Assembly (NCBI RefSeq): GCF_004341505.2
Contig: NZ_SLYP02000001.1
Coordinates: forward strand, 2,752,501-2,816,500
Direction of reading: 5' to 3'
DNA from: Sphingomonas sp. JUb134
GTDB taxonomy: Bacteria; Pseudomonadota; Alphaproteobacteria; Sphingomonadales; Sphingomonadaceae
Length of the DNA: 64,000 nucleotides
A program made the position numbers and the translations under genes. Positions 31,240 through 42,519 of the stretch are shown one piece after another; position 1 is the first letter of the stretch, and every line of letters begins with the position of its first letter. The notes under the pieces were generated by a model. That model was not told the DNA's origin. It ran no database searches and worked only from the letters and a program-made list of their open reading frames with translations.

Positions 31240-31530
31240 CTACACGCATGCCTTGTGTGAGAATTTCTGAGTAGTGCCGTCAATGCGGTTCACCCAGAAA
31301 CATTTGGTGCCGAAGTCTGCGCTGCGAACGCTGAAATCCTTGATGCCGGGGCCGATCCTCTGCACGGCGTCAGGGTGAAGCGCGAGCGCGGAGCTCAGGA
31401 TCACCGCGTCGGCCGCGCTTACGCGATCCCCGATGTCGTATTTGCCCAGCATGGCATTCAGGAACGCGCGTGCTTCGGTCTGCGTATTGAAATGCAAATC
31501 ACCATAGCTGACCGGCTTTTTCTTCCCCAT
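31240..31530 (-). CDS. DUF3223-domain small protein, third gene of the Hachiman operon
   Basis: 96 residues that match the DUF3223 pattern from end to end: LNAMLGKYDIGDRVSAADAV, ALHPDAVQRIGPGIKDFSVR, TKCFWVNRIDGTTQKFSHKA, with the final C. The domain is shared with plant DCL proteins linked to rRNA processing; its bacterial role is unknown. AGGGGAGGT, lying at the end of hamB, provides the ribosome site, and the gene starts 12 bases after the hamB stop, so it is in the same transcript. It could be an accessory or regulator of the defence system, or a passenger. Confidence 0.85.
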   Translation of the reverse strand: MGKKKPVSYGDLHFNTQTEARAFLNAMLGKYDIGDRVSAADAVILSSALALHPDAVQRIGPGIKDFSVRSADFGTKCFWVNRIDGTTQKFSHKACV

Positions 31531-31542
31531 CAGACCTCCCCT

Positions 31543-34170
31543 TTATACTGGCTGCGGACCAGTCATTGCGGCGCCGCCGCTCGGCAGCAAGCGCTCGCGC
31601 AATTCGCGCAACATCACGACCGGCAGCTCCATCGTGTCGAGTTCGTCCGCACGCTCGGTAATCCATTGCAGCGCCTGATCGCGATCGAGGTCGTCGCGGG
31701 CGATCTTCTCGAACAGTTCAACCGCCGTCATGCGGGACAATCCCAGTTCCATGAGCGATATCAGAGTGCGCGAGGACACGCCGAACTCGAGCTGCGTCCC
31801 GATGTCGAGATCGGCATCGATGAGGTCTTGGCGACCGATCTCGACGTAGTAAAGGTGAAGGATGTCCACATAGGCCGAGAAATACTTCGGCGCCCGGAAC
31901 CGCGCGATCTGCTCCACGAGCATCATCGTCTCCCGGATGATATCCGGCAGCTTGTATGCCTTCCCAACTTCTTCGTGCCAAGCGATGTTGCGGCGGATGA
32001 TCTCCGCAAGCGACTTGCCCTTCAGCCACTGAAAAACGATCAACGCTAGCAGCTTCGCGCGAGCGTCAGGCTCGAAGGCCGGAAACAGGCTCGCGTTGAT
32101 GCGGCGCATGATGGTGACGAAGCGGTCATAGCTGTCGTCGCTGGCAACCTCGGCCGGTAGCAGGTTATCGGGCTCGCCCTTATACGCCCGGAACGTCTCA
32201 AGGAGGCGCTGCATGCCGATTGGACTCACGCCCGAGTGCCGCGTCGCCAAATCCGAACCGATCTCGATCTTCGCGGCGATCCTCGAAAGCGTCTGGTCCA
32301 GATTCTTTATGAAGGCGGCATCATGCCGCTTCGCCAGTTCGGCATCTGCAATGGAGCCGAGACGCATGTAGGTGGTCAGTAGATACGCGCCCACCTGCTC
32401 GAAATCGCCATCCCCGTCGACGTCCCTTGGAGCGCCCACGGCTCTCTCCTCTAGGTAGCCTAGCAACTCGCCGCCAGCATCGAGTACCGCGTCGCTTTCG
32501 CGCCGGATCGGATAGCGCGACCGGACCGGAACGCCGTGCGGCCAAGCGCTCCCGTCATGCGGGTCGACGCAGATGATGTTTCCCTGAAACTCGTCGCCCC
32601 AGCGTCCCGCCCGGCCGGCGAGGTTCCAGAAGTCGTGCGGCTCCATTGGGTTGCCCTTCCCCTTTCGGGGGCCACGCACCACAATGGTGCGGCAGGACAG
32701 GTTCACCCCTTCAACGAGCGTCGAGGTGCAGACGAGGAAGCGGATCTTACCCGAGCGGAACAGCCGCTCGATTTCGAGGCGAAGCAGGGAAGGCATGTTC
32801 CCGAAGTGGAAAGCAATTCCTCGCTCGACGAATTTGGCGAGACGGAAGCCGGGATGAACGCCCTTTCGGGCCAGTTCCGCAAGGGCAGCCAGCTCCGGAT
32901 CGACCGCGCCCGGATCATGGTCGGGCTGAAGCTGGCTTATGAAATCCGCGATGTTCTCCGATTCTCCCGCACCATTAGCATAGACCAGCGTTCCTCCCCG
33001 GTCGCCGGTGGCGGCCGCTGCGATGAACGCCAGACGCTTGGGTATGCTGCTGGGCGAACTCGCGAGTTGGAGCGTGCCTATGTCCACCTCCTCACCGCCT
33101 TGTCTCGCGACGAGGTTCCAGAGCTTCGGCTTGCCCTTGGACTGCTTGGCCAAGATGACGTTCTGGAGCACAGTTGGCGCATCGCTGTCGACTGCTTGGG
33201 TCGTGGCGCCCGGAGGGGCATCGGCCAAGAGTTCTCCGGGGTTCTGCGTCGACGGGCTGATGAAAACCAAGCTCATCTTGGGATTGAGGCGGACCGCCCG
33301 CTCGACTGCATCCTGAAGGATCACGCCTCGCCCATCGTCACCGATCTTATGGGCCTCGTCCACGATCATCAGATCGATTAGGAAGTCCGCGCCGAGCACA
33401 TTGGCAAGGAGGTGCATGCGTTCCTGCGTGAGCACCAGGATGAGGCGAGCGCCCCCGGCCCTTGCGTCGTCGAACTTGGTCCGAAGCGGGAGAGAGGAAA
33501 CCACCACCCCTTTTACCGCCTTCAGGTATTGTTCGAGACTTGACTCGATCTCTGTCACGAGCGCTCGCGTGGGTGCGAGATATACCGCGACCTTCGCTTC
33601 GCCGGCGGTGATCTGATCCACCAGCCATTGCAGAACCAGGAACGTCTTTCCTGAAGCGGTCGGAGCGGAGGCCGAGAGCCAGTCCGCGCTCGACGCCCCC
33701 GTCCAGAACCGCTGCTGAAACTCGTTCACCTCAAGCCATCGCCCCGACGTCTCGACGAGTACCGACCTGTCCATCTCGCGCCGCTGGGTTTCGAGCCGAA
33801 GCGAAACACCGAGGCGTCCATCGAGGTCGTCCGCAACGAGGCCACGGCCAATAGCCAACGTAACGGCGCGAAAATTCGACAGCTGCCCGAGGAGCATGGC
33901 ACCGGCGTCGCGGACCTTCTCGTCCTTCACGAGCACAACCGCCCCAACCGCGATCCTCAGGCCCGCCTCCTGATTCGCGCGCATATCGGAGCGGGCGAGG
34001 ATGCTGCCGGCGAGGATGAGCCGATGCCAATCGAGCTTATCGGCGGTGTTGGCCTCGGGGTCGTCGACCAAATTGGACAGTTCGGATCTCACCGTCAGCT
34101 TGGTGAGCGTCGCGATCTCGTCGCCGACGCCTTCTGCCATGAGCCAGGACTGGAGGCCCGAAAGCGTCAT
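31543..34170 (-). CDS. hamB: Hachiman anti-phage system helicase HamB
   Basis: 875 residues, superfamily 2 helicase of the Ski2-like kind. Motifs: APTASGKTFLVLQWLV (Walker A, near residue 170), IVDEAHKIGDDGRGVI (DEAH, near 272), FISPSTQN (motif III), FLVCTSTLVEGVNLSCRTIV and WNLAGRAGRWGDEFQGNIIC (motif VI, near 522). A C-terminal helical region of about 300 residues has no known motif. Its ATG overlaps the hamA stop by 4 bases. HamB with HamA forms the Hachiman complex, which senses damaged or phage DNA and releases the HamA nuclease. AbpAB is a related pair and cannot be excluded by eye. Confidence 0.88.
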   Translation of the reverse strand: MTLSGLQSWLMAEGVGDEIATLTKLTVRSELSNLVDDPEANTADKLDWHRLILAGSILARSDMRANQEAGLRIAVGAVVLVKDEKVRDAGAMLLGQLSNFRAVTLAIGRGLVADDLDGRLGVSLRLETQRREMDRSVLVETSGRWLEVNEFQQRFWTGASSADWLSASAPTASGKTFLVLQWLVDQITAGEAKVAVYLAPTRALVTEIESSLEQYLKAVKGVVVSSLPLRTKFDDARAGGARLILVLTQERMHLLANVLGADFLIDLMIVDEAHKIGDDGRGVILQDAVERAVRLNPKMSLVFISPSTQNPGELLADAPPGATTQAVDSDAPTVLQNVILAKQSKGKPKLWNLVARQGGEEVDIGTLQLASSPSSIPKRLAFIAAAATGDRGGTLVYANGAGESENIADFISQLQPDHDPGAVDPELAALAELARKGVHPGFRLAKFVERGIAFHFGNMPSLLRLEIERLFRSGKIRFLVCTSTLVEGVNLSCRTIVVRGPRKGKGNPMEPHDFWNLAGRAGRWGDEFQGNIICVDPHDGSAWPHGVPVRSRYPIRRESDAVLDAGGELLGYLEERAVGAPRDVDGDGDFEQVGAYLLTTYMRLGSIADAELAKRHDAAFIKNLDQTLSRIAAKIEIGSDLATRHSGVSPIGMQRLLETFRAYKGEPDNLLPAEVASDDSYDRFVTIMRRINASLFPAFEPDARAKLLALIVFQWLKGKSLAEIIRRNIAWHEEVGKAYKLPDIIRETMMLVEQIARFRAPKYFSAYVDILHLYYVEIGRQDLIDADLDIGTQLEFGVSSRTLISLMELGLSRMTAVELFEKIARDDLDRDQALQWITERADELDTMELPVVMLRELRERLLPSGGAAMTGPQPV

Positions 34171-35129
34171 CCCTCAAGCCCCATCACCTTCAGGAACACC
34201 TCGCGAAATTCCTCGGATGACGGAAGCGGCACGCAGAAGAACTCTATCTCGAGGCTTTCGAGCTTGTTCTTGGTGACCCCCTTCCCGACGCGCATCACCC
34301 AATCGGTCAGAGCGGCCTTCGAGGCTGCCGCGATGTCGTCGGCGACGCCCGTTGCTCCTTTAATGGGATAGAAGGGCACACCGAAACCCACCAAGGCCAC
34401 ACCGCAGTAGCGTACGCGTTTGGACATAGGGGAGGAGCGGTCGAAATACTTCCGGAGCGCCGCTGTCAAATTCTCGTTGGTCAGGTCCGCCCTGTCGCTC
34501 AGGAGAAGCAGATCGCGCTCTCGCTCTGCGCCCTCGTGCTCTTCTTCGATGAGGTATGGAGCGAGAGAATCGAGACATGCGGTGATAGCTTCTGCCGCTG
34601 TCGCATAGACCTTCGATTCACCCCAGTAGAGCTTGAGCACTCCATCGTCCGTAATGCCGGCGTACACACCGTCAGCGCCATGGTAGTGCATCTTCTCGTC
34701 AGTCTTCAGATCCATCTTGCAAAGGATCTGGGGAAACTTGAGGAATCGCTCAGCGAGAAGATACAGGAGCATCTCGCCACCTTCGCCGGTTTTCGCCAGA
34801 TCGGTGAAAGAGCGCTTGGCGCGCTCGACGAGTTCAGCGACGGCCTCGGTGCTATTGAACTTGGCGTCTCGCGCCTTCGCCTCGGCGATCTTCGCCTTTG
34901 GCAAGGCGTAGCTGGTCGCAGCGTTGCGCATGAATTCAGTCAACCGGTGCAGCTGGATCCGGCCGTTCCCATCAAGCGCTAAGCAGTGACAGTGAACCTT
35001 GACCAGTTGGCCTTCGACCGCAACGTCGCGCTCTATAAGCGTCAGGTGAACGTCGAGCGCCTCCGGGTCACCGCTGAGGGCAGCCTCCAGATCAGTCGCG
35101 GTTATCGTCGACAGACAGCTTCCCCCCAT
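34167..35129 (-). CDS. hamA: Hachiman nuclease subunit HamA (DUF1837)
   Basis: 320 residues. The DUF1837 domain shows the PD-(D/E)xK-like nuclease core: YHGADGVYAGITDDGVLKLY followed by WGESKVYATAAEAI, giving D at about 155 and E-S-K at about 170. The N-terminal region should hold the protein against HamB until activation. The operon order hamA-hamB with a 4-base overlap is the Hachiman arrangement. The start MGGSCLSTITATDLEAA follows GGTGGA by 7 bases. It is divergent from a small ORF at 35207. Confidence 0.88.
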   Translation of the reverse strand: MGGSCLSTITATDLEAALSGDPEALDVHLTLIERDVAVEGQLVKVHCHCLALDGNGRIQLHRLTEFMRNAATSYALPKAKIAEAKARDAKFNSTEAVAELVERAKRSFTDLAKTGEGGEMLLYLLAERFLKFPQILCKMDLKTDEKMHYHGADGVYAGITDDGVLKLYWGESKVYATAAEAITACLDSLAPYLIEEEHEGAERERDLLLLSDRADLTNENLTAALRKYFDRSSPMSKRVRYCGVALVGFGVPFYPIKGATGVADDIAAASKAALTDWVMRVGKGVTKNKLESLEIEFFCVPLPSSEEFREVFLKVMGLEG

Positions 35130-35650: not shown

Positions 35651-37975
35651 ATGACCGAAGAGGAACGGGCTTATCGCGCGTCGCGCGATCCCGCTCATCT
35701 CGTTGAAGTGGATGCAGCCGGACGATCGCATCTCCACCTCGCTGCGATGTCTGGCAAGGCAGCCGTCTGCCGCATCTACATCGCCGCCGGGTGCGACCCG
35801 TCGACGCACGATAATTCAGGGCGTACAGCAGCGGAGCTTGCAAAGGCTGCTGGCTATGCTGCGCTCGCGCGTTCGCTCGAGGCGCTGCCCGCCCGCCCTG
35901 CAGCGACCAGCACCCCCAAACAGGCCGGCAGCCGCCCCGAACTGCTGGATGCGGCCGAACAGCGCGGACTGGTATCAGGTAACCAGCAGGTCATTGCCGC
36001 GATCATATCGAATGGCCGGCTCCGTTGCCGCAATCCGAAGGGAGACACCCCGCTTCATCTGGCAGCTGCGGGCGGTCACCTGACCGCGTGCAACGCGCTC
36101 TTCGAAGCGGGTGCGGATCCGGGAGCGCGGAACGACGCCAAGCAGACTCCGGCAGAGATGGCGGCAGAATCCGGTCATCAGGACCTCGCCCGCCTGCTTA
36201 GCGGCCAGGAACCGGAGGCAACCGCACCCAGTCGCTCATCCCCGCCCCCCGCCGCGCTGCAACCCGAGGTGACAGAACTGCAGCCGTTTGCAGACGCTGG
36301 TTTCGATCTGATCGATTTCGACGCGCTCGAAGAGCCCGCCGCATATCATGCACGGCAGCAGATCGGCACAGTTTCGGCGATTTTCACCGCTATATCCCCT
36401 CGTTCCGGAATGCGGAGTGGCGGAGCGGAGGAGAATGACGACTGGGAACTGCCGACGAGTCTCGCAAAGGCGGGCGCAGCGGGTTCTTCGCAATTCCAAG
36501 CCGGCCGCCCCCCGGACCTCGATGACGCTGCGGATTTTTCGCATTCCTCCGCCAGCCGTCGATCCCGCCGGCCTCGGAAGCTCAGGGATACAACGTTCGC
36601 GCTGTCCGCGGATTTGGCGGAGACTTGGGCGGCCGAGGCGCTTGCCAGCGGCATGGTGAATGAGCAGGCAATCCGGGATTTAGTGAGCGCGTGCCGGGGA
36701 AACCCGAGCTGGGCGGATCTCGAGACCAATGTAGGCAAGGTGCTCGCAGCCGCCGGAATACACGTGATCCGCGAGGCTGGAGACTTCCGGCCCTTTCCCG
36801 ACGCGTCCCTTGACTTGGTCGATGTGGCCGTGCTGAGCGAGGCAATTGTTGCCGCCTGCACCCGGGATGCCGTCGTTCCCGGCAGCGGCCCCTTCATTCT
36901 CGACCGGGCTACCGAGGAGCGAATCCTTCGCGAGATAGCGAATGCCCGTCGAGACCTGCTTGACGGAATTCTGGACACCCCCGGCGTCCTGGCCGAGGTC
37001 GTCCGGCGCGGCGAGCTTGTCTTGGCAGGCGAGCTTGCACCGGACGAGTTCACCGAATTGGATATCGATCCCGATGCTGACGATGGGGATGATGACGACT
37101 TCCCAGGCAATATCGAGATTCTGCGCAATGCCGTCGAAGAGGGTGTCAAAAGCGGAGGCCGGGCACGACGTGTTGCGATCCAGGCGCTCGAGGAGCTTGA
37201 AATCCGTCAGGACTGCTTGGTCGGCCTCGCCGCTAGCCAGGGCGAGGTGGCAGAAGGAACAATCCGCAGGCTGATGAGCATATGCGACCGCGCGGCCGAA
37301 GAGCTCGTCCTTAGGCACCTTTCGTTTATGCGGCGAGAAACCGCGAAGATGGCGAAAGCTGACGAGGATGCGGAGGAACTTTTCCAAGAAGCGTATTTCG
37401 GTCTTCGCCGGGCGTCGGAACGCTTCGACCCTGAACGCGGGGTGCGCTTCTATCTGTACGCATTGCTCTGGATCAGGCAGCGGATAAGCCGCTGGAGGGC
37501 CGACCAAGGATCGTTGATCCGCGTGCCGGTGCATCGCGTCCAGCTGAACGCGAAGATCACAACACACGCGGAGGAGTTCGAACGCTCACATTTACGCTCA
37601 GCAACGGATTTAGAGCTGGCGGCAGCTACGGGCTTCGAGGCTGCAACGATCAGGTCGCTTCAATTCGCGCTATCGGACCCGGTTCCGTTTCATCAGGTGG
37701 AAGGGGCGATAGCATCGCGCGCGGAAGGGCAGGACGAGATCTTTTCAAGAGCGCAACTCGCCAGCGTCATCAGTCGCGAGCTCAACGACCTGCCGGCACG
37801 CGCGGAGGCCGTGATCCGCATGCGGTTCGGTATCGGCCTTACGAGCGATATGACCCTAGAGGAGGTCGGCAAGATCTACGGCGTCACCCGCGAAAGAATC
37901 CGACAGATCGAGGCCAAAAGCCTTCAGACACTGGCTCACCCGAGCCGGCGCCGCGTTTGGCGGGGCCTGCTCTGA
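35651..37975 (+). CDS. Ankyrin-repeat protein fused to an RpoD-like sigma factor
   Basis: 774 residues from ATG 35651 (GTG 35618 possible). Ankyrin repeats fill about residues 25-90 and 130-190 (RSHLHLAAMSGKAAVCRIYI; GDTPLHLAAAGGHLTACNAL). After an acidic/low-complexity linker comes a sigma70 body: region 1.2-like RATEERILREIANARRDLL near 420, region 2 (EELFQEAYFGLRRASERFDP, YLYALLWIRQRISRWRADQG) near 575-625, region 3, and region 4 (TLEEVGKIYGVTRERIRQIE) near 725-774. The -35 reading helix is as in RpoD. In region 2.4 the first of the two promoter-melting tryptophans is Leu (ALLWIRQ for ATWWIRQ). The stop abuts the GHKL ATPase start (TGAATG). I know of no described protein with this architecture. 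Confidence 0.85.
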   Translation: MTEEERAYRASRDPAHLVEVDAAGRSHLHLAAMSGKAAVCRIYIAAGCDPSTHDNSGRTAAELAKAAGYAALARSLEALPARPAATSTPKQAGSRPELLDAAEQRGLVSGNQQVIAAIISNGRLRCRNPKGDTPLHLAAAGGHLTACNALFEAGADPGARNDAKQTPAEMAAESGHQDLARLLSGQEPEATAPSRSSPPPAALQPEVTELQPFADAGFDLIDFDALEEPAAYHARQQIGTVSAIFTAISPRSGMRSGGAEENDDWELPTSLAKAGAAGSSQFQAGRPPDLDDAADFSHSSASRRSRRPRKLRDTTFALSADLAETWAAEALASGMVNEQAIRDLVSACRGNPSWADLETNVGKVLAAAGIHVIREAGDFRPFPDASLDLVDVAVLSEAIVAACTRDAVVPGSGPFILDRATEERILREIANARRDLLDGILDTPGVLAEVVRRGELVLAGELAPDEFTELDIDPDADDGDDDDFPGNIEILRNAVEEGVKSGGRARRVAIQALEELEIRQDCLVGLAASQGEVAEGTIRRLMSICDRAAEELVLRHLSFMRRETAKMAKADEDAEELFQEAYFGLRRASERFDPERGVRFYLYALLWIRQRISRWRADQGSLIRVPVHRVQLNAKITTHAEEFERSHLRSATDLELAAATGFEAATIRSLQFALSDPVPFHQVEGAIASRAEGQDEIFSRAQLASVISRELNDLPARAEAVIRMRFGIGLTSDMTLEEVGKIYGVTRERIRQIEAKSLQTLAHPSRRRVWRGLL

Positions 37976-38602
37976 ATGGGCGCTACAAGAAATGTGCCGC
38001 CGGCTGCAGGTGCCATGCTCGAGTCGCTGCGCGGCCTAGGTTACACCACTGCCACAGCGATCGCCGATCTGATCGACAACTCCATCAGTGCGGAGGCCGA
38101 TCATGTCGACGTGGTGTTCGAATGGAACGGTCCAGACAGCTGGGTCAGGGTCTCTGACAACGGCCGGGGAATGAGCGACGCGGAACTCGAAGCCGCAATG
38201 CGCCTCGGCGCGCGCGATCCGCGAACACAACGACGTGCCGGCGATCTCGGCAGGTTCGGCATGGGATTGAAGACGGCAAGTTTTTCGCAGGCACGGATAT
38301 TGACCGTTGCGAGCAGCAAGGCCGGCCATGAACGGTGCTGCCTTCGCTGGGATCTCGACCTGCTCGGCGGAGCGGAGGGGAGCTGGCTGCTTCATGAGGG
38401 TGCGCGAACTGGTTCGAAGGACCGCGTCGAAGCCGGGCTGTTCGACGACAGAGGTACGATCGTCCTTTGGGAAAACCTCGACCGCGTCGTGACGGACGGC
38501 TTCACCGCGCAGGACTTGATTGAACTGATTGAACAAGTTGTGAAGGGCGGTGACAAACCAGGCCACAGGACCGCCGGCGCAGTGCCGTCGGGGGCGGAGT
38601 AA
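37976..38602 (+). pseudogene. MORC-like GHKL ATPase, cut by the IS21-family element
   Basis: About 202 native residues (37976-38582) plus a few read from the insertion sequence. The complete ATP-binding signature is present: N-box IADLIDNSISAEADHVDVVF, G1 SDNGRGMSDAELEAAMRLGA, G2 LGRFGMGLKTASFSQARIL. This wording is typical of the MORC/MutL-like ATPases found in predicted restriction-type operons, beside Z1 helicases or PD-(D/E)xK nucleases. The transducer and C-terminal parts are gone and do not reappear beyond the insertion. Its start follows the sigma-gene stop with no gap, so the two were translated together. Confidence 0.85.
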
Positions 38603-38613
38603 AATCCGGCCAG
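38593..38613 (+). repeat. IS21 left-end repeat
   Basis: GGCGGAGTAAAATCCGGCCAG, matching the right-end repeats except for a few bases. A further copy in the same orientation lies inside the 3' end of istB at 40919-40939. Confidence 0.8.
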
Positions 38614-38646
38614 TTGGTAAGCTGCTCCCTTTGCGGAGCGGCGGGG

Positions 38647-40134
38647 ATGTTTGTCGTGGAGAGCTACGCAGCGGTCAGACGGTTTGTATTTGTCGAGGGG
38701 CATAGTCGCCGGGAAGCGGCGGAGGTGTTCGGGCTGAACCGGGATACGGTACGCAAGATGTGCCTGTATTCGGCGCCTCCTGGATACCGCCGGACGAAAC
38801 CTCCGACCAAGCCGAAGCTCGGGACGCTGCTACCGGTTATCGACGCAATCCTGGCAGCCGACCGCGAGGCGCCGGGCAAGCAGCAGCACACGGCCAAGCG
38901 GATCTTTGAGCGGCTGCGCGACGAGCATGGCTATACGGGCGGCTACACGATGGTGAAGGACCATGTGCGGCTGTGCAGGGCCCGCGGGCGCGAGACCTTC
39001 GTGCCGCTGGCGCACCCGCCGGGGCATGCACAGGTCGACTTTGGCGAGGCGGTCGCGGTCGTCGGCGGGGAGCGGATGAAGATCCACTATTTCTGCATGT
39101 CGCTGCCGCAGTCGGATGCCTGCTTCTTCAAGGCGTATCCGCGCGAGACGACCGAGGCGTTTCTTGACGGGCACGTGTCGGCATTCGCGTTCTTCGGGGG
39201 CGTGCCGCTGTCCATCCTCTACGACAACACAACCATCGCCGTGGCAAAGATCTGCGGCGATGGAACGCGCGAGCGCACACGCGCCTTCACCGAGTTGGTC
39301 AGCCACTACCTGTTTCAGGACCGTTTTGCGCGTCCAGCGCGAGGCAACGACAAAGGCAAGGTCGAGGGGCTGGTGAAGTTTGCGCGCAACAACTTCATGG
39401 TGCCCGTGCCGGTCGCTGCCAATTTCGATGTCCTGAACGCCAGGTTCGAGGAGTCCTGCCGTACGCGCCAGGGCGAGCATGCCGGTCAGCACGCGCAGAC
39501 CATTGCCGAGCGGCTGGCGGCAGACGTATCGGCATTGCGCACGCTGCCGTCCGTACCACTGGAGCCATGCGAGAAACGCGCGGCGCGCGTGTCGTCGACC
39601 GCGATGGTGCGCTACCGGACCAACGACTATTCGGTGCCGACCGCGTACGGCTACCGCGACGTGATGGTGAAGGGGTTCGTCGACGAGGTCGTCATCATAT
39701 GCGCGGGCGAAGAGATTGCCCGGCACGCGCGTTGCTACGACGAAGGCGTATTCGTCTCCAACCCACTGCACTATCTCGCGCTCATCGAGACCAAGCCCGG
39801 TGCGCTCGACCAGGCGGCAGCCCTTCAGGACTGGAACCTGCCGGACATCTTCCAGCATCTGCGCCACCTGCTCGAGGCCCGGATGGGCAACAAGGGTAAA
39901 CGCGAGTTCATCCAGGTGCTGCGGCTGCTCGAGGCGATGCCGCTTCCCATCGTCACGGATGCCGTGACCGAGGCAGTCCAGTTGGGCGCACCTGGTTTTG
40001 ACGCGGTAAAACTCATCGCGCTGGCGCGTATCGAGCGCCGTCCGCCGCGCCTGGATTTAGCGGCGTATCCGCACGTGCCCAAGATGGACGTCAAAACGAC
40101 GTGCGCGGCCGACTATGCGGTGCTGGCAGCATGA
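38647..40134 (+). CDS. istA: IS21-family transposase IstA
   Basis: 495 residues. An N-terminal helix-turn-helix (SRREAAEVFGLNRDTVRKM) is followed by the DDE integrase core: AQVDFGEAVAVVGGERM (first D), PLSILYDNTTIAVAKI (second D), then GNDKGKVEGLVKFARNNFMV (E). A C-terminal beta region follows. Start MFVVESYAAVRRF at 38647 fits the family. It appears intact and, with IstB, could still be active. Confidence 0.93.
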   Translation: MFVVESYAAVRRFVFVEGHSRREAAEVFGLNRDTVRKMCLYSAPPGYRRTKPPTKPKLGTLLPVIDAILAADREAPGKQQHTAKRIFERLRDEHGYTGGYTMVKDHVRLCRARGRETFVPLAHPPGHAQVDFGEAVAVVGGERMKIHYFCMSLPQSDACFFKAYPRETTEAFLDGHVSAFAFFGGVPLSILYDNTTIAVAKICGDGTRERTRAFTELVSHYLFQDRFARPARGNDKGKVEGLVKFARNNFMVPVPVAANFDVLNARFEESCRTRQGEHAGQHAQTIAERLAADVSALRTLPSVPLEPCEKRAARVSSTAMVRYRTNDYSVPTAYGYRDVMVKGFVDEVVIICAGEEIARHARCYDEGVFVSNPLHYLALIETKPGALDQAAALQDWNLPDIFQHLRHLLEARMGNKGKREFIQVLRLLEAMPLPIVTDAVTEAVQLGAPGFDAVKLIALARIERRPPRLDLAAYPHVPKMDVKTTCAADYAVLAA

Positions 40135-40982
40135 CGGACAAGGACGCCATGCCGGTGGGCACGACCGCAGGTACGCCACAGGTGCTGCTCGCCCATCATC
40201 TCAAACAACTCAAACTGCCAACCGTTCTGCGCGAGTACGAAAAGGTCGCGCGCGAATGCGCGCAAGGCGGGGTCGACCACACGCGCTACCTGTTGCGGCT
40301 TATCGAGTTGGAGCTCATCGACCGCGAGCGCCGGACCATCGAGCGACGGATCCGCGCAGCCCGTTTCCCGGCTGTGAAGAGCTTCGACACCTTCGAGTTC
40401 ACCGCCATCCCCAGCCTGAACAAGATGATGGTGGTCGAGCTCGCACGGTGCGAATATATCCTGCGCCGCGAGAACGTCATTGCGCTCGGCAACAGCGGGA
40501 CAGGCAAGACGCATGTAGCCCTCGCGCTCGGCCTGGCGGCTTGCCAGAAGGGCTTCACAGTCGCCTTCACTACCGCGGCCTCGCTGGTGAACCAGTTGAT
40601 GGAGGCGCGAGACGAGCGACGGCTGCTCAAGCTCCAACGCGAGATGGCGGCCGTGAAGCTGCTCGTCGTCGATGAACTCGGCTACGTCCCGTTGTCCCCG
40701 ACCGGCGCCGAACTGCTCTTCGAGGTGCTGTCGCAGCGCTACGAGCGCGGCTCGACCATCATCACCTCCAACCTGCCGTTCGAGGACTGGACGCAGGTGC
40801 TCGCCTCCGAGCGGCTGACCGGCGCACTGCTCGACCGGCTCACCCACCATGCCACCATCCTGACCATGAACGGCGACAGCTATCGCCTCAAGCAGTCCAC
40901 CGGACGCAAACGTCGCGGGGCGGAGCAAAACCAGGCCAGTGCCCTGTCCGACCCGGACACCGGTGAGATATTATCTTCCTGA
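40131..40982 (+). CDS. istB: IS21-family ATP-binding helper IstB
   Basis: 283 residues, AAA+ ATPase related to DnaC, needed for target choice by IstA. Walker A is ALGNSGTGKTHVALALGLAA, Walker B is VKLLVVDELGYVPLSP, and sensor 1 is TIITSNLPFEDW. The ATG overlaps the istA stop. The C-terminal tail (RRGAEQNQASALSDPDTGE) is encoded by one of the element's end-type repeats. Confidence 0.94.
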   Translation: MTDKDAMPVGTTAGTPQVLLAHHLKQLKLPTVLREYEKVARECAQGGVDHTRYLLRLIELELIDRERRTIERRIRAARFPAVKSFDTFEFTAIPSLNKMMVVELARCEYILRRENVIALGNSGTGKTHVALALGLAACQKGFTVAFTTAASLVNQLMEARDERRLLKLQREMAAVKLLVVDELGYVPLSPTGAELLFEVLSQRYERGSTIITSNLPFEDWTQVLASERLTGALLDRLTHHATILTMNGDSYRLKQSTGRKRRGAEQNQASALSDPDTGEILSS

Positions 40983-41004
40983 CCATCAGGCCGAGGACGG
41001 CAAC

Positions 41005-41042
41005 GATATGAAAAGGGCCCCGATCGGGGCCCTTTTCATATC
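41005..41042. terminator. Bidirectional terminator inside the IS21 element
   Basis: A perfect 38-base palindrome, GATATGAAAAGGGCCCCGAT and its mirror, lies 22 bases past istB. A-run and T-run flank the GC core, so it should stop transcription in both directions and insulate the element. Confidence 0.85.
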
Positions 41043-41083
41043 GTCAGCGCGCGCCTCAAGTGGCCTGCTTTTACTCCGCCCCG

Positions 41084-41104
41084 CTGGCCTGGTTTTGCTC
41101 CGCC
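41084..41104 (-). repeat. IS21 right-end repeat
   Basis: CTGGCCTGGTTTTGCTCCGCC, the inverse of the left-end repeat. A second inverted copy, GGCCTGCTTTTACTCCGCC, lies at 41062-41080. Tandem end repeats are usual for IS21. Confidence 0.8.
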
Positions 41105-41111
41105 GTTGACA

Positions 41112-42484
41112 GGATCGCCCGTCTGGCGCGCAACATGCGCCTGTTCTTCAACTCGCTCGACGGGCTTGCCGATGTCGGCGTCGAGGTGATTTCAATCACG
41201 GAGAACTTCGGCGAAGGCCGCCGCACCAAGCGCATGGGCCAAACCATCTCCGCGATGGTGGCCGAGCAACAGGCCATCGACGCGTCCATCTATACCTCCA
41301 AAAGCCGCCGTGAGAATGCCCGTCAGGGCTTCTACAATGGCGGTCCGGTAGCCTTCGGCTACGAGACATATGTCGCCAGGAAGGATGGCGATAAGGAGCG
41401 GATGAAGCTGTGCGTTGTTCCTGCGGAAGCCGCAGTGGTCGATCAGATTTTCGACTGGGCGGATATGGGGCGCGGCGGGCGCTGGATCGTTGGAGAACTC
41501 AATAGGCGCGGCACTACGCTGCGCGGCGCCAAGTTCTCCAACGGCAATCTGTCAGGTATATTGGGCCGTGTCACCTACACCGGTGTCTATTACGACAAGA
41601 CCGTCGACGATGACGGCAACGTGCCCGATCCGGAGGATTGGATCGCCGTACCATGCCCGGTGATCATCGATCAGGCGCGGTTCGACCGCGTCAACGCGCT
41701 GCGGGCGTCTCGCAATCCGCGCCGTACCCCACCGCATATTGCCGCTGGCACCACGATGCTGACCGGCATCGCGAGATGCGGAACAGCGGGATGTAGCTGT
41801 GCGATGACGATCCGCACCGGTAAGGGCGGACGATACAGCTATTACGTCTGCGCCAATCGTGTGAACAAGGGGGAGGCTTGCGCGACCCCGAGCATTGCAC
41901 GGAAGGTGCTGGACGATCTCGTGCTGAATAGCTTGGAAGAGCAGGTGCTTGCGCCCGAGCGGTTGCGGACGCTCCTGTCGGATGTCCTCGACCTCTCCGA
42001 TCAGAAGCGGGTTCAGCGCGAAGCGGAGCTAACGCAAGCCCGCGCCGAGAAGACGCGGCGTTCCACAGCCATCGAACGTCTCTACATCGCCCTGGAAGAG
42101 GGCGATATTGGACCGCGTGATCCAATCTTTGCGAAGCGAATGGAAGAGAATCGATCCGCGCTCGCCGCCTCGACGACGCGCATTGCTACGCTGGAGGCGC
42201 AACTGGCGAAGGGGTCGCGAAAAATCACCCCGAACACGATCAACCGGTTTGGGGAATTACTGTCCGCCAGGCTGCGCGACGACGACCCGGCGCTGAGGAA
42301 GGCCTATCTGCGGATGCTGGTGTCGAAGGTCACTGTTTCCGATGCACAGATCACCATCTCTGGCCCGAAGGCCGTGCTAGAGAATGGTGTCTGCAACGGT
42401 GCCCCGCGCCTAGAAGGGACGGTGCCCATCTTTGACCGGGAATGGTGCCCCGGGAGAGACTCGAACTCCCGACCTGCGGTTTAG
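41112..42484 (+). pseudogene. Large serine recombinase lacking its N-terminal catalytic part
   Basis: About 457 residues remain. They begin at DRIARLARNMRLFFNSLDGL, the middle of the resolvase domain, so the catalytic serine region (about 65 residues) has been removed by the IS21 element. The recombinase domain follows (GGPVAFGYETY), then the zinc ribbon (CGTAGCSCAM ... YVCANRVNKGEACATPS) and a coiled coil. Such enzymes integrate and excise phages and islands. The reading frame runs into the tRNA-Arg gene and stops inside it, as expected for an integrase lying against its own attachment site. Not functional as it stands. Confidence 0.88.
42399..42451 (+). repeat. Three direct GGTGCCC repeats at the island edge
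   Basis: GGTGCCC occurs at 42399, 42421 and 42444, spaced 22 and 23 bases, with the last at the 3' end of the tRNA gene. The regular two-helical-turn spacing beside a serine recombinase gene suggests recombinase or excisionase binding; chance is not excluded. Confidence 0.4.
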
Positions 42485-42519
42485 GAAACCGTTGCTCTGT
42501 CCTGCTGAGCTACCGGGGC
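42443..42519 (-). tRNA. tRNA-Arg (anticodon CCT)
   Basis: 77 bases including an encoded CCA. The acceptor stem GCCCCGG/CCGGGGC is perfect, the D arm is GCTC...GAGC, the anticodon loop TTCCTAA gives CCT, and the T arm is GGGAG-TTCGAGT-CTCTC-like. It reads AGG codons. It lies at the right edge of the accessory island, a usual site for integration. Confidence 0.93.

Follow-up and report, generated by a model that had tools for sequence, protein, structure and literature searches.

Why would an immune operon carry a primary-type sigma factor? The question is raised by a 64,000-nucleotide stretch of the Sphingomonas sp. JUb134 genome (contig NZ_SLYP02000001.1, positions 2,752,501 to 2,816,500; hereafter the window), in which a gene joining ankyrin repeats to a sigma70-like part is directly followed by the beginning of a GHKL ATPase gene cut by a mobile element. 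The first-pass annotation of this pair proposed an undescribed defence or transcription-takeover system. The two genes are very probably mzaA and a cut-off mzaB of MZA, a five-gene anti-phage system (mzaABCDE; Gao et al. 2020, Science 369:1077, cited through PMC9523054), with the remaining genes missing beside the mobile element. The window locus is a decayed copy of a known system.

Identity of the ankyrin-sigma70 gene and its truncated neighbour

The frame of mzaA (35651..37975, plus strand), whose top NCBIfam match is the MzaA model, is open from either ATG 35651, which gives the 774 residues first annotated, or a possible upstream start at GTG 35618 (785 residues). Pfam finds two Ank_2 stretches, one of them at residues 109-188 (35975..36214), together with Sigma70_r2 at residues 552-619 (37304..37507) and Sigma70_r4 at residues 711-761 (37781..37933), confirming the ankyrin-sigma70 fusion. 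The sigma body had been called full; regions 2 and 4 stand, but region 3 is not among the Pfam matches and region 1.2 is seen solely in the alignment of the NCBIfam MzaA profile to residues 328-771. As had also been noticed, the mzaA stop (TGA 37973-37975) directly abuts the mzaB start (ATG 37976), and the mzaB remnant (37976..38538, plus strand; about 188 of about 500 codons) is a GHKL ATPase by HATPase_c_3 and by the PADLOC MzaB model (E 6e-63, profile 1-189 of 500).

The models used were NCBIfam NF041931/NF041932 and PADLOC MzaA/MzaB, and because RpoD resembles MzaA, the genome's own RpoD was run as a control. On NCBIfam the window protein scored 281 bits with the MzaA model and 143 bits with the RpoD model, whereas the order was reversed for the control (435 and 905 bits); this ranking does discriminate between MzaA and RpoD. 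The PADLOC MzaA match alone proves nothing, because the genome's own RpoD scores higher (256 bits) than the window protein (146 bits). Residues 1-200, which hold no sigma part, align by themselves with the beginning of the NCBI MzaA model (profile 10-92, 93 bits; the next best model, for another ankyrin protein, reaches 30 bits), so that an ankyrin segment is a part of the described MzaA. The mzaB fragment is 73% identical to MzaB of a relative (L029) and 53% to E. coli MzaB; with 53-73% identity to 18 sigma-bearing rows and no more than 43% to the five sigma-less MORC proteins compared, it falls by identity with the MzaB of MZA loci and not with the latter. The MzaB tree was built on the relatives alone.

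Further genes had been expected downstream in intact relatives, and the partner prediction was correct: 27 complete loci all hold MzaC, MzaD with a DUF4420 PD-(D/E)xK domain and MzaE with an AIPR domain. The novelty did not hold. The same gene set is already named MZA, with curated models and with mzaA-E annotated in E. coli strain H9Ecoli, whose 683-residue MzaA has ankyrin repeats and sigma regions 2 and 4, and the ankyrin segment is already part of the MzaA model. An undescribed system is thus very improbable, and with its novelty ruled out by the models and the annotated E. coli genes, the first interpretation is supported only in part and the claim of a new system is closed. That the frame is an ordinary housekeeping or alternative sigma gene fused to some unrelated gene, or the product of an assembly join, could draw on the cross-match of RpoD to the PADLOC model, but this is hardly conceivable given how widely the same fusion recurs. 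By a count made by eye, 115 of the 120 homologues listed have Pfam matches to Ank as well as to sigma domains; Ank is missing from P0028, P0073 and P0081, sigma from P0057 and P0060. Identity is 68-94% for 26 database proteins (P0002-P0027), with at least 96% of the length covered, and MzaB neighbours with the remaining MZA genes are found in 27 of 33 loci. In the sigma tree, all MzaA proteins except the E. coli one group together at support 100/100, apart from RpoD. The fusions in homologues, the MzaB neighbours and the tree rule out an ordinary sigma gene or a join.

Several results weigh against the identification with MZA. The 281 bits of the window protein lie far below the curated NCBIfam cut-off of 800, as do the scores of the 12 other relatives scanned (168-275 bits), and therefore they are placed in a diverged MzaA subfamily. 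No NCBIfam model matched the middle 345 residues alone. Between the sigma part and its counterpart in E. coli MzaA, identity is only 37% (29-33% for three other relatives), MzaA as a single group is weakly supported in the sigma tree (57/47), and the approximately unbiased (AU) test neither rejects nor shows that group. The search for the MzaD DUF4420 PD-(D/E)xK domain found nothing in this genome, although this absence is weak evidence because the same search gave a match in none of the control genomes. Anti-phage activity of the window subfamily is putative, and a regulatory role of MzaA in mzaBCDE transcription may be proposed from residue conservation and promoter layout.

With the MORC/MutL-like GHKL ATPases of restriction-type operons, as treated by Iyer et al. 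2008 (PMC2292703), the system has in common the GHKL fold and nuclease, methylase and AIPR neighbours; neither the word sigma nor the word ankyrin appears in the main text of that paper.

Decay of the locus and its relatives

Unlike complete MZA loci, the window copy stops after mzaB codon 188 and is without mzaC, mzaD and mzaE beside it. An IS21-family element (38539..41111, plus strand; istA 38614-40134, istB 40101-40982) with TGT...ACA ends breaks the ATPase gene, as the first-pass annotation had stated; the frame read there as a GHKL ATPase does run to 38602, but the ATPase part ends at 38538 and the final codons lie inside IS21. No target-site duplication was found at the ends of this copy. 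The 4.1-Mb genome has 18 full-length istA-istB matches to this element, and flanks were read for eight copies, one of which (L012) has a direct repeat, suggesting many IS21-driven rearrangements in the genome. Searches of the genome for MzaC and for the MzaE AIPR domain gave no match, each of them having given a match in one of 14 control genomes.

The relatives vary in what accompanies the five genes. In the stretches fetched for the 27 complete sigma-bearing loci (within L029-L060), a Dcm cytosine methyltransferase homologue is present in 24 and a Vsr homologue in 16, whereas the annotation of the 26-kb E. coli MZA stretch has neither; six sigma-less loci (L021-L026) have Dcm in all six and Vsr in five. 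At L057:8363-10840, an MzaA-like frame of 825 residues lacks mzaB-E over some 9.5 kb of downstream DNA and is a possible orphan like that of the window. MzaB at L058:10683-12207 is in two frames (306 and 246 residues), possibly through a frameshift or an assembly error. A HipA-like kinase gene (Pfam HipA_C) precedes mzaA at L030:4624-5883, the locus of Novosphingobium lentum, and a frame judged similar by its start and end precedes mzaA in L029.

MzaA as a sigma factor

MzaA resembles RpoD in the layout of regions 2 and 4 and in an identical -35 helix, and differs from it in the N-terminal ankyrin repeats, in an identity of 37% over 218 columns for the window sigma part and in an apparently shortened region 3.2 finger. 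We compared residues in 44 MzaA proteins (E. coli, the window, 32 loci and 10 database proteins). R584, E585, R588 and Q589, which we take to be the -35 contacts of sigma70, are identical to RpoD in all 44, and region 4 played no part in finding the loci. This region also holds the longest stretch of MzaA that is strictly conserved, the DNA-contact helix (VTRERIRQIE). Of the presumed -10 reading residues, F427, Y430 and W434 are each kept in 43 and Q437 in 44, and W433 in only one (Y in 23, F in 11, L in 6). Among positions that presumably bind core polymerase, Q406 is kept in 44, E407 in 15 and N409 in one. The high region 2 counts are biased because part of that region served as a search pattern, which partly selected Q406, W434 and Q437. 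All 44 have gaps at finger positions 509-513, in a part where the alignment is loose.

The AlphaFold model of MzaA has a mean pLDDT of 75.6 and a pTM of 0.40. In a search with this model, the first matches were sigma70-type chains from RNA polymerase complexes (best E 1.9e-14), with low TM-scores because the placement of the domains is uncertain in the model. The predicted fold and the kept residues support MzaA as a candidate promoter-reading protein.

A promoter-like layout was seen upstream of mzaA in some loci. L054 aside, 32 loci have MzaA, and in 14 of them members of one gene family stop at the beginning of the mzaA frame or overlap it (L032, L036, L037, L039, L041-L043, L045-L050 and L060, a set drawn from outside the window and its three closest fetched relatives, L028-L030). 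The member in L050, the one tested in Pfam, is a WYL-domain protein; WYL regulators are known beside defence systems (PMC9122601). TTGNNN-N17-TANNNT stands at an almost constant position before this gene in 14/14, compared with a mean of 0.22 of 14 and a highest count of 2 in 500 letter shuffles, and is followed by a CCCAG..TGGGCGCGCA element in 12/14. As a promoter of these loci the layout is only suggestive, because of the relatedness of the loci and because the alignment had been seen before the stretch was chosen.

How would such a protein act? One possibility, which we consider rather unlikely, is that MzaA sits at promoter DNA with MzaB, MzaC or MzaD as its partner. The invariant -35 residues, the gapped finger and the divergence of some core-binding positions (E407 and N409, though Q406 is kept) fit this, as does the presence of mzaA in one run with DNA-acting genes in 27 loci. 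Ordinary transcription, however, also uses sigma folds, and the search-selected counts and the loose alignment around the finger weaken it. Still less likely, MzaA may be a bait whose likeness to sigma70 in region 4 draws phage anti-sigma proteins and so triggers the system. The longest kept run does sit in region 4, but it is the very helix that contacts DNA, and elsewhere the region departs from the host's own RpoD (G581 in 40 of 44, S in RpoD).

We found no paper on the MZA mechanism in the literature searched. With 27 complete relatives now in hand, the sigma role of MzaA is the part worth testing, and the presence of a primary-type sigma factor in an immune operon poses a good question that is now directly testable: the -35 helix does not vary, the finger seems to be shortened, 14 loci share a promoter-like layout and some MzaA are fused to GcrA. 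GcrA is a sigma70 partner that reads CcrM methylation. The MzaA proteins at L040:7739-10951 and L049:7670-10951 (1071 and 1094 residues) have three GcrA stretches in addition to ankyrin and sigma parts, and 22 of the 120 listed proteins have a precomputed PF07750 (GcrA) match (within P0062-P0116; counted by eye).

Neighbouring genes

On its left, mzaA adjoins a Hachiman pair, which had been correctly recognised: HamA (34167-35129, minus strand; best PADLOC E 2e-143) and HamB (31543-34170, minus strand; best PADLOC E 0) are adjacent, and both are near full-length matches. On the right flank of IS21 lies a serine recombinase without its N terminus (41112..42484, plus strand; Pfam Resolvase, Recombinase and Zn_ribbon_recom), in which the Resolvase match begins at profile position 69 of 145. 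A tRNA-Arg (CCT) gene (42443..42519, minus strand) overlaps the end of the recombinase frame. Beside Hachiman, a small gene (31240-31530, minus strand) presumably encodes a DUF3223 protein.
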